From Rhizobium sp. NLR16a (GTDB taxonomy: Bacteria > Pseudomonadota > Alphaproteobacteria > Rhizobiales > Rhizobiaceae), in contig NZ_CP072865.1 of assembly GCF_017948245.1 (NCBI RefSeq), positions 1,885,501 to 1,949,500 of the forward strand: DNA of 64,000 bases, read 5' to 3'. The notes beneath the pieces were generated by a model. That model had not been told where the DNA came from. It was given only the letters and a program-made list of their open reading frames with translations, and did no database searches. Position 1 is the first letter of the stretch. Every line of letters begins with the position of its first letter. Positions 3,616 to 37,277 of this stretch are shown in pieces. A program made the translations under genes and the position numbers.

Positions 3616-3889
3616 TCGTGCGCACGGCCTCGGCGATTTCAGCCATAATGCTCTCGCCGCCAAGGGAACGACTGTGCCTGGAAACACAATGATGTCGTCC
3701 CTTAGCGACTGGAGCTGTACCCGCAAAGGAGGGGGATGGTCAGGGCCATTCCCCTCCGGATTAGGCTCAACTAACCTGCTACAAGTCACCTAGTTGCGCA
3801 ACATGCAACGTGTCAAACGTTTCAGTCATCAACAGGCTGGTGAGTTGCCCTCACTGTGTTGAGCAGCCGCCAACCGGAGTCCAGTTAAC

Positions 3890-5819: not shown

Positions 5820-5918
5820 CAATACCTTTTCATCAATAGATACGGCATCATTAGCTCATGTTCAATCGCCGCCAGTGCAGAGTGGCGTCTCTTAGACATG
5901 CTTGCTGTAAAACAAAGC

Positions 5919-5951
5919 AGCCGCCTCCCCGGCTAAGGAGAGGCGGCTGGC
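5919..5951 (-). terminator. Intrinsic terminator, minus strand
   Basis: AGCCGCCTC and GAGGCGGCT form a 9-bp perfect stem. On the minus strand it is followed by a T-rich run (GCTTTGTTTT). It would stop transcripts coming leftward from the phage late genes before they enter the Doc operon. Confidence 0.6.
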
Positions 5952-6015
5952 GGTTGCGGCTAGACTAATCTCCGCCCTCCTGCTCAGATGGCGCATCTTG
6001 GCGGGAGCAATAACA

Positions 6016-6867
6016 ATGCATGAGAATTCACCGTGCTACTGCGGTAGCAGACGCAAATTTAAGAAATGCTGCGGCGCTCGCGGCGGGGGAATATCAAACC
6101 AGTTTTTTGTCGCGGCCGGTGAGGCTAACCCTTCATTGGGAGAACTCATTTCAAAGGTCAGAGCATTTTTCGATCGCTCGTTTTCAGGAACAATCCAGCA
6201 AGGGCTCACGTCAGATTACGTGATAGGAGGAGATAAGTTTATTGACCGCGCCAGCGTGTCAATCGTTACGCGCGATCCTGATCGCGCGTTTGTTTATTTA
6301 GCCCATGAGTTGTTACATCTAGATTTGCATGCCCGCGGCTACGGCATATATCGGGGTTGGCCTGGTTTAGCGCCTAAAGTCGCCAACGCAGCCCAGGCTT
6401 TCAAGCGAGACCTAGAAGACCTTGTTAATCAAATGCACCATCTGATTTTCTTCGAGCAATTCGTCGAAATGGGTTTTCCGCCGGCTCTTTTTGTGCTGCC
6501 AGTCGCGCCACCTCAAGATTATTCTGAGTTCTCAAAGATCCACAAGGCCATGGGATTCCCGGAGCTTCATGGGTTTCTTCGGCTTTGGTGGGCACATGAG
6601 GCCATTCGGCACTATCTCGCTCCTATGCAGGGACAACCCGATGAATCACGAAAAGTCGACATTATAATCGGCCAGGCGATGTCAGTTTTCCATGATTTTG
6701 ACTGCACATGGTCAGATATCGTTCGTTGGGTCGATAACGGTGGTTTTAAAAAACCCGAGGGATACATTCCCGCATTCAATAATCTCGCTACTATACTTGC
6801 CATGCCCCGTCCGACATTCGCGTCAATAGATCCCCGCACATTGGCTATACAAACTCTGCCACTGTAG
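6016..6867 (+). CDS. SEC-C zinc-binding protein with HExxH metallopeptidase-like motif
   Basis: This 283-residue protein opens with CYCGSRRKFKKCCG (residues 7-20), a SEC-C-type zinc motif. At residues 97-101 it has HELLH in a helix (YLAHELLHLDLHARGYG), the HExxH core of zinc metallopeptidases; a downstream helix (NQMHHLIFFEQ) might give the third ligand. I know no named family with this pairing. The ATG at 6016 has GGGAG nine bases upstream; an earlier TTG at 5998 lacks one. It is more AT-rich than its neighbours and is read against the late genes, like a phage moron. A host-interaction or defence role is inference. Confidence 0.7.
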   Translation: MHENSPCYCGSRRKFKKCCGARGGGISNQFFVAAGEANPSLGELISKVRAFFDRSFSGTIQQGLTSDYVIGGDKFIDRASVSIVTRDPDRAFVYLAHELLHLDLHARGYGIYRGWPGLAPKVANAAQAFKRDLEDLVNQMHHLIFFEQFVEMGFPPALFVLPVAPPQDYSEFSKIHKAMGFPELHGFLRLWWAHEAIRHYLAPMQGQPDESRKVDIIIGQAMSVFHDFDCTWSDIVRWVDNGGFKKPEGYIPAFNNLATILAMPRPTFASIDPRTLAIQTLPL

Positions 6868-29342: not shown

Positions 29343-29807
29343 CTAGTCCGGTCGCGCCAGCAGATCATCCTCTAGTGGGTTGTCACCCTCGATTGCCTTG
29401 GCCGCACCGCGGCGCTTCGCTACATCCCTCGCCTCGCCCGCTTGCGCACGCGCGTGGAGCGACAACGACCGACGGAACGACAGTATCGAGCTGGCGTGCA
29501 TCTGCACGATTGATTTTCGCGGGTTAGCTACCGGCGTGCCCTTTTCGGAGTAGGCAACGCCGCCTTCGTCGCGCAAAAGCTTTTGCTCTCGCGTCAGGTC
29601 GGCCATGTTGCGGGCTAGCATTGCGGCGAGTTCGAGCTGGTGGGCCGACCAGTCTGACCGCGCATATTCTGAGATGACGTTGCGGAAGAACGGAAGGTCT
29701 TCCTCGTCGAGCGGCACGTTGTCCGGCGGCAGAATATCCGCCGTCGCCTTGGCCATGACGCGCACGGCTTCGGCCGCGCTGTCGATGCGCGCTTTCCTCT
29801 TTGCCAT
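29343..29807 (-). CDS. Terminase small subunit (P27-like)
   Basis: The 154-residue protein reads MAKATADILPPDNVPLDEED, then ELAAMLARNMADLTREQKLL and a basic C-terminal helix, a pattern of P27/Nu1-like small terminases that recognise the phage packaging site. The ATG at 29807 with GGAA upstream is preferred to 29873. It is placed directly before the large subunit. Confidence 0.7.
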   Translation of the reverse strand: MAKRKARIDSAAEAVRVMAKATADILPPDNVPLDEEDLPFFRNVISEYARSDWSAHQLELAAMLARNMADLTREQKLLRDEGGVAYSEKGTPVANPRKSIVQMHASSILSFRRSLSLHARAQAGEARDVAKRRGAAKAIEGDNPLEDDLLARPD

Positions 29808-29934
29808 GGCGGTGGATTCCTCATTCGGCCTCGCGCGCTTGCGCGCACGGGAGGCAAAAATCTGTATTAGCACTAACGCGAATGCCCGACGCCGCTCCCA
29901 TAGGCGATGGCGCCGAAACGGCGACCACCCCTCC
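29808..29934. other. Candidate packaging-site region
   Basis: A 127-base gap separates the HNH and terminase genes. It contains GCGCGCTTGCGCGC, a self-complementary stretch, and a C-rich run near 29928. Phages with an HNH protein next to terminase usually have a cos site here. No overhang can be read from a prophage sequence, so this is inference from position. Confidence 0.3.
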
Positions 29935-30258
29935 CTACCCTAGCTCGATGGGATACCCATCAATGCCGTAGGTCACGACCTTCTTGCCGCGCTCCATCAT
30001 CTGCTTGGCGCTGTCGTGATGGTGCTTGCAAAGGGACTGCAGATTGGTTGGATCGAAGAAGAGTTCAGGATCGCCATTGTGACGCCGCTTGTGGTCGACG
30101 ACGTCCGCCTCTGTGATCTCCTCGGTCACCAAGCAGAACTCGCATAGCGGTTGCATCGCCAGCTGATGCTGTCGCAACCGGCGCCATGCCGCACCCTTAT
30201 ATAGGTGCTGCCATGCGGCGCTATCGGCGCGCTGTTTGGTGTCAGGTGTGGGCGCCAT
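29935..30258 (-). CDS. Phage HNH endonuclease
   Basis: A 107-residue HNH protein: PLCEFC and a later SLCKHHHDS supply the zinc Cys/His, while ADVVDHKRRHNGDPELFFDP holds the DH pair and the Asn of the HNH site. Such proteins next to terminase stimulate cos cleavage during packaging in HK97-like phages. The N-terminal YKGAAWRRLR stretch is standard for the family. Confidence 0.9.
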   Translation of the reverse strand: MAPTPDTKQRADSAAWQHLYKGAAWRRLRQHQLAMQPLCEFCLVTEEITEADVVDHKRRHNGDPELFFDPTNLQSLCKHHHDSAKQMMERGKKVVTYGIDGYPIELG

Positions 30259-30268
30259 CGCGACAACC

Positions 30269-30745
30269 TCAACCAGGAATGCGATGGCGATCCCGCACTC
30301 TCAGGATATCACCGAAGATATAGGCGACACGCAGAAACGCCAAAAAGCCCCATAGCGACAGGAATGACCATGCTGCAAATACGTGGAACCGCCACGATGC
30401 TTCGGCATCTATATTGAAGGACGTTATCGACATCGCAATGCTTGAGAAGGTCAGGCAGAAGCCGAGGTATATTGCTCTCTTTGTGTATGTTAAAAAGAGT
30501 GCCATCTCCCTGGTTTCGCGTATCGCTTCGATGAAGCCGCCGCTCTTTCCCGCAACAAAGCCAAAGATACCGAAAACGAAACCTGTCTGGATAGAAGACC
30601 AATCGAATACAGAGGAATAAACGTTGCTTAGATCGAAGCTCTTGCTAGCGGCAGCATATGTAAGGTCCGTGCGAAAAAAGTAGAGCGCAGCCACCATGCA
30701 GGCGGCTGCGGCGACCGGACCAAATCGCTCAAAGAGATCGCTCAT
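30269..30745 (-). CDS. Four-segment membrane protein, RexB/KwaA-like position
   Basis: The 158 residues contain four likely transmembrane segments, near 8-24, 45-65, 88-110 and 120-145. The pattern VYSSVFDWSSIQTGFVFGIF followed by a GKSGGFIEAIRETRE loop resembles a family of tetraspan proteins of uncertain role. It overlaps the upstream 280-residue gene by ATGA. This pair has the order and sizes of lambda rexA-rexB, in which the membrane protein causes ion loss on infection. Kiwa also pairs a tetraspan protein with a soluble one. No direct homology is claimed; the region is AT-richer than the packaging genes. Confidence 0.6.
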   Translation of the reverse strand: MSDLFERFGPVAAAACMVAALYFFRTDLTYAAASKSFDLSNVYSSVFDWSSIQTGFVFGIFGFVAGKSGGFIEAIRETREMALFLTYTKRAIYLGFCLTFSSIAMSITSFNIDAEASWRFHVFAAWSFLSLWGFLAFLRVAYIFGDILRVRDRHRIPG

Positions 30746-31584
30746 CCGATTATCTTCTTCATCTCGGCGGTCAAATAGCCTACCTTTACCCAATAGTTCT
30801 TTACTGGGTCGCGATCATCGATAGCCAGTGTGTCACGCAGCACCTGCCTCTCTTCGATGAGATCGATTTCCTCTGTAGAGTCGTCAACAGTCGTCACCGC
30901 TGACAGTTTGTCAACACGAGCGTGCGGACCAATAGCAGTGGAGAGTAGGTCGGCGAGGCCTTTCACTGCGTCCGACAAATAGCCTTTGCGATGACCCATC
31001 GACAACTCGATGCTTATGCTTGGTGCTTCATATGCTTCCGCAAGCGCCTTTAATCCCGATGACGCAGCATGACCGTCGCCGGCCAAATCGTTCATCGAGT
31101 CTGGCGATGCCACCCGTATGGCAAGCTTTCGCACTGACCCCGCATTGAACTTCTTCCACGCATCCTTGTTGAGCCGCGGCTCCACGGAATAAAACGCAGC
31201 GCCGTGATAGATGCGCAGGTATTCTAGAACTCGTCCCAACGAAACGACACGGGGATCGTGTTGAAAACCTATAACACCCAATTTGTGGTTAAGGCGAAAG
31301 ACAATGCTGTGACCAAGCTGTTTAGCAGTTAGCGGTTTCCTCACGGATCCATCTAATTCACTTGGCAAGTTTGTTGATTGACAACGGACGAACTCACCAA
31401 CAACAGCGTCCCCGCCGTCATCCTCAAGTTCTTCCAGCCGGATGGTATAATCCTCAGCCAGAGGATGTTCTCGTTTTGCGCGATCCGGCTCTTTGGCAAT
31501 TTGCCTAAGGATGTCGACCATCGGCGGTTTTTTTGGATCATCACGAGTGACGTTGTAGAAGCGAAAAGTAAAACTCTTATTCAT
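30742..31584 (-). CDS. RexA-like/DUF6731-like cytosolic protein
   Basis: A 280-residue protein beginning MNKSFTFRFYNVTRDDPKKP, reminiscent of DUF6731-type proteins. As far as I can compare from memory, its layout resembles lambda RexA (279 aa): a first beta/alpha part, HSIVFRLNHKLGVIGF in the middle, then a VEPRLNKDAWKKFN-type region and a repeated strand with SISIELS. The start was chosen at the ATG after a GGG-rich stretch; the longer frame to 31749 crosses a hairpin. It forms an operon with the membrane protein, and an abortive-infection role is inference. Confidence 0.6.
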   Translation of the reverse strand: MNKSFTFRFYNVTRDDPKKPPMVDILRQIAKEPDRAKREHPLAEDYTIRLEELEDDGGDAVVGEFVRCQSTNLPSELDGSVRKPLTAKQLGHSIVFRLNHKLGVIGFQHDPRVVSLGRVLEYLRIYHGAAFYSVEPRLNKDAWKKFNAGSVRKLAIRVASPDSMNDLAGDGHAASSGLKALAEAYEAPSISIELSMGHRKGYLSDAVKGLADLLSTAIGPHARVDKLSAVTTVDDSTEEIDLIEERQVLRDTLAIDDRDPVKNYWVKVGYLTAEMKKIIG

Positions 31585-31679
31585 TGCCCAACCCAGTATA
31601 GTTGAGACAATACAACATAAACGCGTAGATTTGAAAACGGCAGAGTTCGCTGCGTCCACATGTTCTAGCAGAAACGAAA

Positions 31680-31714
31680 GCGCCGAGCTCGACCCGAAGG
31701 GAGCCCGGCGCAGG
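31680..31714 (-). terminator. Terminator-like hairpin insulating the RexAB-like operon
   Basis: GCGCCG and CGGCGC enclose AGCTC/GAGCC arms. On the minus strand the stem is followed by TTTCGTTTC. It would stop leftward transcription coming from the replication genes before the two-gene operon, which therefore needs its own promoter in 31585-31680. Confidence 0.5.
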
Positions 31715-31799
31715 ATTACCGCGTCGCGAGAGGAGGCGCGCTGCGGCAATTGGTAAGATTTTTGCTGTAACGTCCCCGGATATTTTCCAGGGATACGAG

Positions 31800-32489
31800 A
31801 TGGCCTTAAGTCAGTTTCAGATAATCAAGTCGTTAGGCGAAGCCCTGTCGTGGTTCGAGCGTGAGCTTGCCTGGGGTGTTCCAGCGTCGGAACTTAATCA
31901 TCTCACTGGCCGTATCGGTGAACTCTACACAGCTATGTTCACCTACGGGCAAATGGCGCCCGAATCGAAGCAGCGTGGTTATGACGTGGTGAGCGCGGAC
32001 GGGCAGAAGATCTCTGTTAAGACAGTGACCTCTTCAACCCAAGTCTCATTCAATGAAAACACATTCGGCGATGTCGATCGGGTGGTGGTCCTCAGGATCA
32101 ACGCGAAGGAGCTGGCGATCGAAATATTGATGGATCTTCCGGCATCAGAAGCTCGAGACAGCATGCGGACACGCGCTGGAAAGCTTGTCTTTCCAACCTA
32201 CAAGTCGCCAACACAGGCCGACCACGTTCCACTCAGCAACCTACAAATCACTAAAGTGGCGAATGCCGGCCAAATACAAATTCGCCAGTACGAGAACGGG
32301 ACTGTCGAGGTTTTGAGGGATGGCCAGCTTCTCGCACCCGCTTTGCCTGTTCTTCGCGAGCTATCGATCGAACTCGGCATTGATCATCTTAACAGCACTG
32401 GGACGCCAAAAAACACCCGTCACCTAGGCGATCAGATCATCCGGGAATTGCATGCGCGGCAGCAGGAGGCATCAGCGCAAGACGAATAG
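31800..32489 (+). CDS. PD-(D/E)XK nuclease-like protein
   Basis: A 229-residue protein. LTGRIGELYTAMF (Glu41) is followed by RGYDVVSADGQKISVKTVT, giving Asp62 and S-x-K at 72-74. This is the Glu, Asp, x-x-Lys order of PD-(D/E)XK nucleases, with Ser in place of the second acidic residue. The C-terminal half has a QIQIRQYENGTVEVLRDGQ strand pair and a helical end. It runs divergently from the RexAB-like operon across a 215-base gap, next to phage morons. A restriction or defence role is likely but unproven. Confidence 0.6.
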   Translation: MALSQFQIIKSLGEALSWFERELAWGVPASELNHLTGRIGELYTAMFTYGQMAPESKQRGYDVVSADGQKISVKTVTSSTQVSFNENTFGDVDRVVVLRINAKELAIEILMDLPASEARDSMRTRAGKLVFPTYKSPTQADHVPLSNLQITKVANAGQIQIRQYENGTVEVLRDGQLLAPALPVLRELSIELGIDHLNSTGTPKNTRHLGDQIIRELHARQQEASAQDE

Positions 32490-32555
32490 GAAAGAGGCTG
32501 GCCCGGCGAACTCGCGAGTCTCAAACGTCCGCGGTTGACGGCGCCCCAAACTGAA

Positions 32556-32583
32556 GAGGGCCACCGAATGGCGGCCCTTTATC
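32556..32583. terminator. Bidirectional terminator between convergent genes
   Basis: AGGGCC and GGCCCT with an inner CC/GG pair form a hairpin followed by TTTAT on the plus strand and preceded by a short A-tract. It lies between the convergent nuclease-like gene and the 312-residue phage gene. Confidence 0.5.
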
Positions 32584-32597
32584 TTCAATCAAATACA

Positions 32598-33536
32598 TCA
32601 CAGCGCGCCACATTTGGGCACATCGATTGAAACTTTATTGTCGTTTGCTACGGCGAGAACCCTCGCCGCCTCGATTAAAGCCGCTTTCCCGGCCCGATCG
32701 GCATAGTCTTCACTGTACCCCAGTCGCAAGCCGATCGACCTGAGCGTGCCTCGTGCAAAGACTTCCTCAATCACCGTCGCCGCTTCGCCTCGCGTTGCTT
32801 CTGGTGCTTCCCAGGCTTGGGCTCCGCTCGATGTATTGCCCTTTGGGCTCGAGATCCCGCCTAGGAAAACGGCGTTCTTCGCGACAGCGTCACTGCACCT
32901 CGTCGCCGGAATCGGCAACTTTTCCAAAGGCACCGTCCCGTCGATACCCAGGCTCTGCAGCAGGCGCCGGCCTTCCGCTACACCATTCAAAGGATCCAGC
33001 ATGGGAGGCAGCATCGGCTGGCCAGACATATTCCGAGGCAACGGATAGGCATCGAATGGGGACGGCGCCGTTGCCCTTGTTTTTAGGTAGCGGGCTGGAT
33101 CGCGTTGATGAACAGCGTCTCCGCCGACCTGCGCTACTCGATCGACTGGCCGAAGCCGGTGACCCTTCTTTGTTACCGCCCACTCGATGAGGCGGCCGCG
33201 TAGAAACTTCAGGGATCCGAGCGAAATGCGTTCATTGTTCTTTCGATCGTCCGTCGGATCAAACTTCTGCGAGGCGCCTTCCGCGGCTTTTAACAGCTCG
33301 CCGACTGTGGGGCGGATCTCCTGCCGACCGTCGGCGAGGTCAGCTGACCAGTTACCCTCTGTTTTCGGCTTAGCTGCCGCCATGGCTGGAGCCAAATCCG
33401 GATGGTTGTCAAACAACCACCGGAGCGCCGGGAGCGTGCCGCGATAACGGGGCTGCTTTGGTTTACGCGTCTTATTGTCATTTGCGGGAATGGGACGATC
33501 GGCCGACAGGGCCTCGGCGAATGATTTGAATTTCAC
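32598..33536 (-). CDS. Unknown phage protein of the replication module
   Basis: A 312-residue protein, mostly helical, with IPANDNKTRKPKQ near the N-terminus and ARVLAVANDNKVSID near the C-terminus. The middle region carries LKFLRGRLIEWAVTKKG; a Pro-rich linker follows, then GTLRSIGLRLGYSEDYADRA, an HTH-like helix pair that might bind DNA. The GTG start overlaps the upstream stop by GTGA. No family recognised. Confidence 0.6.
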   Translation of the reverse strand: MKFKSFAEALSADRPIPANDNKTRKPKQPRYRGTLPALRWLFDNHPDLAPAMAAAKPKTEGNWSADLADGRQEIRPTVGELLKAAEGASQKFDPTDDRKNNERISLGSLKFLRGRLIEWAVTKKGHRLRPVDRVAQVGGDAVHQRDPARYLKTRATAPSPFDAYPLPRNMSGQPMLPPMLDPLNGVAEGRRLLQSLGIDGTVPLEKLPIPATRCSDAVAKNAVFLGGISSPKGNTSSGAQAWEAPEATRGEAATVIEEVFARGTLRSIGLRLGYSEDYADRAGKAALIEAARVLAVANDNKVSIDVPKCGAL

Positions 33537-37201: not shown

Positions 37202-37277
37202 TGGTGAGAGCGTCGGGGTTCGAACCCGAGACCTACTGATTAAAAGTCAGTTGCTCTACCGGCTGAGCTACGCTCTC
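37202..37277 (-). tRNA. tRNA-Lys (anticodon UUU)
   Basis: 76 bases with a 7-bp acceptor stem (GAGAGCG / CGCTCTC), encoded CCA, D arm AGCTCAGCCGGTAGAGC, anticodon loop CTTTTAA with TTT, and T arm GGTTCGAACC. It is the boundary between phage and core DNA, with its 3' end toward the phage, the normal target of tyrosine integrases. Confidence 0.95.

Follow-up and report, generated by a model that had tools for sequence, protein, structure and literature searches.

The window analysed here, a stretch of 64,000 nucleotides from Rhizobium sp. NLR16a (contig NZ_CP072865.1, positions 1,885,501–1,949,500 of the forward strand), carries in a prophage two overlapping genes on the minus strand, here called A and B, which a preliminary description likened to rexA-rexB of phage lambda. 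Gene A (30742–31584) encodes a DUF6731-type soluble protein of 280 residues with a RexA-type fold in its structure model, and gene B (30269–30745) encodes a 158-residue protein for which translation and hydropathy predict four membrane segments. The start of B and the stop of A share the tetranucleotide ATGA; re-reading of the open reading frames (ORFs) reproduced sizes, coordinates and overlap exactly. The start of A is kept in the family alignment of 48 out of 53 homologues, as judged on half of the rows. For B, the average over an alignment of 50 out of 51 homologues places four hydrophobic segments at residues 11–29, 46–64, 91–109 and 120–138, and the structure model consists of four long helices (predicted local distance difference test score, 83; predicted template modeling score, 0.74), in line with the number first proposed. 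The conserved core of the B family includes the stretch joining segments two and three.

Linkage and cargo character of the pair

The preliminary description made its Rex-like reading depend on joint conservation of the two genes in other genomes, and this is found. Database searches at E ≤ 1e-3 gave 53 homologues of A and 51 of B, own copies counted. Of 397 genomes sampled from the order, six match A, the identical six match B, and in each the two genes are adjacent on one strand; the chance that both genes pick the same six genomes is 2e-13. Furthermore, A and B matches occur together in 13 of the 15 distinct contigs, other than the own one, that were retrieved by either protein. The remaining two are L007, which has a match to A only and ends there, and L020, which has a match to B and none to A. 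In three loci (L017, at about 5883–6468, L018, and L019), the B-type gene is preceded by merely the last 41 residues of A, and no ORF of at least 90 residues ends at this remnant: A is broken or decayed there, or too divergent.

When 13 genes of the window were used as queries against 17 pair-bearing loci, A and B alone recurred, except for a primase-like match in L008 and a capsid-type match in L020. The contexts of the pair vary: some copies lie in phage contigs, one (L024) lies near recA-like and transposase-like genes, as we read their sequences, and another (L004) lies amid apparent metabolic genes. The phage search found no close relative of A in annotated phages, and the plasmid search found no match for A or for its Enterobacterales-type relative. 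A match of A inside a 2.3-kb gene of a Vibrio phage was at chance level (E 1) and was discarded.

Downstream of the pair and adjoining the terminase genes lies a minus-strand gene for an HNH endonuclease (29935–30258; PHROG HNH, E 1.4e-28), which bears out the nuclease-like neighbour noted at the outset. Among related prophage loci found via the large terminase (the best 80 of 156), this gene is kept in 64 and the small terminase in 71, while A, B and the divergent DUF6998 gene upstream of A are found in none of the 80 at E ≤ 1e-3; some of the 16 loci without the HNH gene lack it by contig end. Upstream of the HNH gene, 236 ORFs from 60 loci, called mechanically so that many are not genes, group into 102 clusters, of which 77 have a single member. 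In the related prophages, this stretch (window 29935–33536 and loci L112–L191) serves as a slot for variable cargo, and the HNH gene is its edge, outside the A-B system. The G+C content at third codon positions is 0.53–0.54 in A and B versus 0.74 in the HNH and small terminase genes, and 0.60–0.63 in two genes on the other side of the pair; the overall G+C content of the pair's stretch is 48–55% versus mostly 57–65% nearby. The A-B pair behaves as transferable cargo, because it is the sole shared unit among the compared loci, some of its copies lie amid apparent metabolic genes, and related prophages are without it.

Family membership, fold and remote relatives

Pfam gives A a single family at E ≤ 1, DUF6731 (PF20505), with 24.1 bits against a curated cut-off of 27 (E 3.1e-5); the RdgC family profile is not matched. 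Among close homologues of A, several carry a precomputed DUF6731 domain, and the name DUF6731 family protein is given to two. A alone, when compared with a profile of distant DUF6731 proteins, was beaten by none of 102 decoys, and hhalign joins the A family to that profile at E 7e-14. On these sequence comparisons A is assigned to the DUF6731 superfamily, as first suggested. A also matches a PHROG of unknown function. B has no significant family match in Pfam, PADLOC or PHROG. The structure model of A has the two-domain RexA/RdgC fold, with lambda RexA as the top match by VIA (12.8) and far above RdgC, so that the Rex-like reading gains from structure prediction.

The distant DUF6731 genes have partners of their own. 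PF20505 is matched in 6 of 398 genomes of the phylum, own genome counted, and 13 distant genes were collected: five from this survey, one from a related class, five from prophage contigs, one from Pseudomonas phage AUS531phi, and one from a Vibrio phage. DUF6731 fragments that contain stops and score below the cut-off (L062 and L063) were left aside. In all 13 cases, a gene for a protein of 138–162 residues, with four hydrophobic segments, comes next; 12 of these genes overlap the DUF6731 gene, with start positions picked by us. The order in AUS531phi, a repressor with a peptidase S24 domain followed by the DUF6731 gene and the membrane gene, is that of lambda cI-rexA-rexB. Moreover, the AUS531phi partner matches the PADLOC RexB model at E 7e-5 over 91 residues, and partners from the Vibrio phage, L034 and L038 match it at 1.6e-4, 2.2e-4, and 4.4e-3, respectively; altogether 5 of the 37 partner proteins in our selected set do so at E ≤ 1. 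A RexB model of our own has DUF6731 partners in all of its 13 best rows (12 different proteins).

Profile-profile comparison with hhalign connects these groups stepwise. The distant DUF6731 proteins align with the RexA family at E 1.1e-4 over 199 columns in a single colinear stretch; the B family aligns with the distant partners at E 8.9e-4, or 1.4e-5 when only divergent rows are used; and the distant partners align with the RexB family at E 3.5e-4. In five comparisons, which do not include the link between the A family and distant DUF6731, none of 60 column shuffles matched the real score, and for the B links the same held for 150 shuffles that left hydropathy classes intact.

Other results weigh against kinship with RexAB. 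Lambda RexA and RexB, used as yardsticks, match PF15969 and PF15968 and the PADLOC Rex models; A does not match the RexA family (PF15969, PADLOC RexA), nor B the RexB family (PF15968, PADLOC RexB). The comparisons proposed at the outset, of the two proteins directly with RexA and RexB, gave no similarity by BLASTP or hhalign, and hmmsearch of PDB sequences with A profiles did not retrieve RexA. By strict sequence family, the pair is therefore placed outside RexAB. The controls point in the same direction: 25 of 150 shuffles were as good as the divergent B rows set directly against RexB, which is not significant; 3 of 102 soluble decoys scored at least as well as lambda RexA on the distant DUF6731 profile, and 8 of 102 did so on the merged one. 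Of the membrane decoys, a small control of 10, one was as good as B (P0002) on the distant-partner profile, one as good as B on RexB, one as good as lambda RexB on the merged partner profile, and all 10 as good as lambda RexB on the B family profile. Our RexB model scores the partners weakly, the best E among 180 proteins being 0.0011. In structure, Foldseek places RdgC above RexA for A, a root-mean-square deviation of 15.6 for the VIA superposition of A and RexA reflects a different arrangement of the two domains, and the fold search with B found no match at E ≤ 0.001 (weak rows for NINJ1 and Orai were not used). Finally, no repressor adjoins the pair in the window, unlike in lambda: the pair's neighbours are the HNH and DUF6998 genes. 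A position behind a CI-type repressor is seen in the relative AUS531phi.

The Foldseek result fits a different explanation, in which the pair would be the phage's own accessory: an RdgC/RexA-type DNA-binding protein tuning lysis-lysogeny or recombination, with B as its anchor and without any defence. Lambda RexA is described in PMC11077077 as biasing the lytic switch without need of RexB. The behaviour of the pair as transferable cargo speaks against such an accessory, which we regard as quite unlikely. RdgC is not known as the companion of a membrane protein.

A Kiwa-like system would likewise combine a membrane protein, KwaA, with a DNA-associated one, KwaB, a division of labour similar to that of A and B, and KwaA has a weak match (E 0.017) in one of the 37 partner proteins. 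A and B match neither Kwa model, which answers a comparison suggested earlier; A has the RexA/RdgC fold; and Kiwa starts with the membrane gene. This kinship is thus extremely improbable. Indeed, neither A nor B matches any PADLOC model, toxins included, and this also bears on a membrane-toxin addiction module that would stabilise the prophage without antiviral action. Overlapping genes, one of them for a small membrane protein, and low-G+C cargo would suit such a module; the gene order and the fold fit a sensor-effector pair instead, and the module appears very unlikely.

Fold, linkage and relatives support the Rex-like reading. The sequence motifs do not: HSIVFRLNHKLGVIGF and VEPRLNK, at first taken for a RexA layout, are motifs of A's own family, and BLASTP and profile comparisons with lambda RexA came back empty. 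In our judgment it is rather probable that DUF6731 is a RexA family and forms, with its four-segment partner, an unrecognised RexAB-type branch in Pseudomonadota and their phages, including a lambda-like Pseudomonas phage locus and an apparently non-tailed Vibrio phage; the effector of the rhizobial/Mesorhizobium-type clade would have drifted past direct recognition as RexB, and the pair would move as a plug-in cassette.

Several side observations concern this family. In AUS531phi (L069, 3824–4270), the membrane gene is annotated from 3914, and a start at the in-frame ATG at 3824 brings back the first predicted membrane segment. The Vibrio phage, classed with Vinavirales (not tailed), has at L070 1389–2896 a DUF6731-like gene, whose product does not itself match PF20505, and a partner matching PADLOC RexB. 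The PADLOC candidate PDC-M67A is matched by 2 of 12 distant DUF6731 proteins (E 5e-6 and 2e-4) and not by A; neither PF20505 nor PDC-M67A has a stated function, and our literature search found no mention of DUF6731 or PDC-M67. The control genome of Methanocaldococcus jannaschii gave a DUF6731 profile match below the cut-off.

Comparison with Rex systems and a possible mode of action

RexAB was the first exclusion system discovered, and its trigger is still not known. The A-B pair is probably a distant cousin of the lambda genes. The A-then-B order and the sizes (279/144 residues in lambda and 280/158 here) agree, as do the fold of A and the four segments of B, and a chain of profile matches leads via DUF6731 and its partners to RexA and RexB. 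The coupling, which had been taken to be the same, differs: the lambda genes are spaced by a short gap, unlike the ATGA overlap here. Direct sequence similarity is lacking, and the lambda pair lies behind cI, whereas A and B are flanked by HNH/terminase and replication-type genes.

Five Rex-like systems have been described so far, according to PMC12894663. RexABpp of Pseudomonas putida (PP_5643/PP_5644) is likewise a prophage-borne RexA-like protein with a four-transmembrane partner; by description, it differs in lying behind a CI-like repressor and in a size of about 37 kDa. The same text reports that both rex genes are required for defence, that RexA binds DNA and when over-produced halts growth only with RexB, and that dye enters a subpopulation of cells, with no depolarisation measured. 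Mycobacteriophage Sbash gp30/gp31 and Gordonia phage CarolAnn gp44/gp43 also combine a RexA-like soluble protein with a four-transmembrane protein in Rex-like exclusion, according to PMC6426596 and PMC6426606, though with 372/165 residues in this type; the Sbash pair is not behind a CI repressor either (PMC6426596). The profiles of Sbash gp30/gp31 resembled neither those of lambda RexA/RexB nor the DUF6731 side, so that DUF6731 is closer in sequence to lambda than this accepted Rex-like system. DUF4747, mentioned for RexA in PMC6426596 and PMC6426606, was found in none of 350 genomes and is uninformative, since the controls were silent too. The overlapping exclusion genes of phage Fc02 were set aside for their different anatomy (PMC9936078).

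Taken together, we consider A-B, with a probability of roughly two in three, to be prophage cargo encoding a divergent phage-exclusion (abortive infection) system of the RexAB type, and the cassette may shut the infected cell down against rival viruses. By analogy with RexA and RdgC, A would dimerise, bind DNA regardless of its sequence, and sense replication or recombination structures of the incoming phage, or a phage protein. Once triggered, it would engage B, plausibly at the cytoplasmic stretch between membrane segments two and three, and B, like RexB of lambda and P. putida, might then open or damage the inner membrane, leading to a growth stop and an aborted infection. The roles might also be inverted: A would be a cytosolic antiviral effector held at the membrane by B until infection, as described for gp30/gp31 of mycobacteriophage Butters, whose anatomy is identical (PMC12894663). 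Among the five systems counted there, Butters stands alone in this, and the conserved core of B may point to a role beyond that of a tether; we consider the inverted arrangement unlikely.

Should the DUF6731 pairs prove to be RexAB systems, this family, so far without a known function, would gain a role open to testing. Many diverse homologues would then be at hand for mapping the infection-sensing residues of RexA and the gated part of RexB, and defence-finding tools, which missed this pair, could be extended. Rhizobia would possess a Rex-type defence amenable to study with the phages of laboratory strains. In agreement with the statement that no such system is known there, a literature search on RexA, RexB and Rhizobium gave, by title, only DNA repair and recombination.

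Surroundings of the pair

The DUF6998 gene (31800–32489, plus strand; Pfam E 4.3e-10) is separated from A by a divergent gap of 215 bases (31585–31799), likely to hold the pair's own promoter; no sigma-70-like site was found on the minus strand within 29800–32700. The gene has no match in the 17 pair-bearing loci, and its G+C content is below that of the phage core: a second cargo candidate adjoining the pair. The insulating terminator of the preliminary description is doubtful: the sole rightly placed candidate is a nine-pair hairpin (32578–32557, minus strand) with a poor T run, and the scan returned nine terminator-like sites versus 3.6 expected, one of them within B. A tRNA-Lys gene (37202–37277) bounds the phage-type region on the right and is the likely integration site of the prophage.
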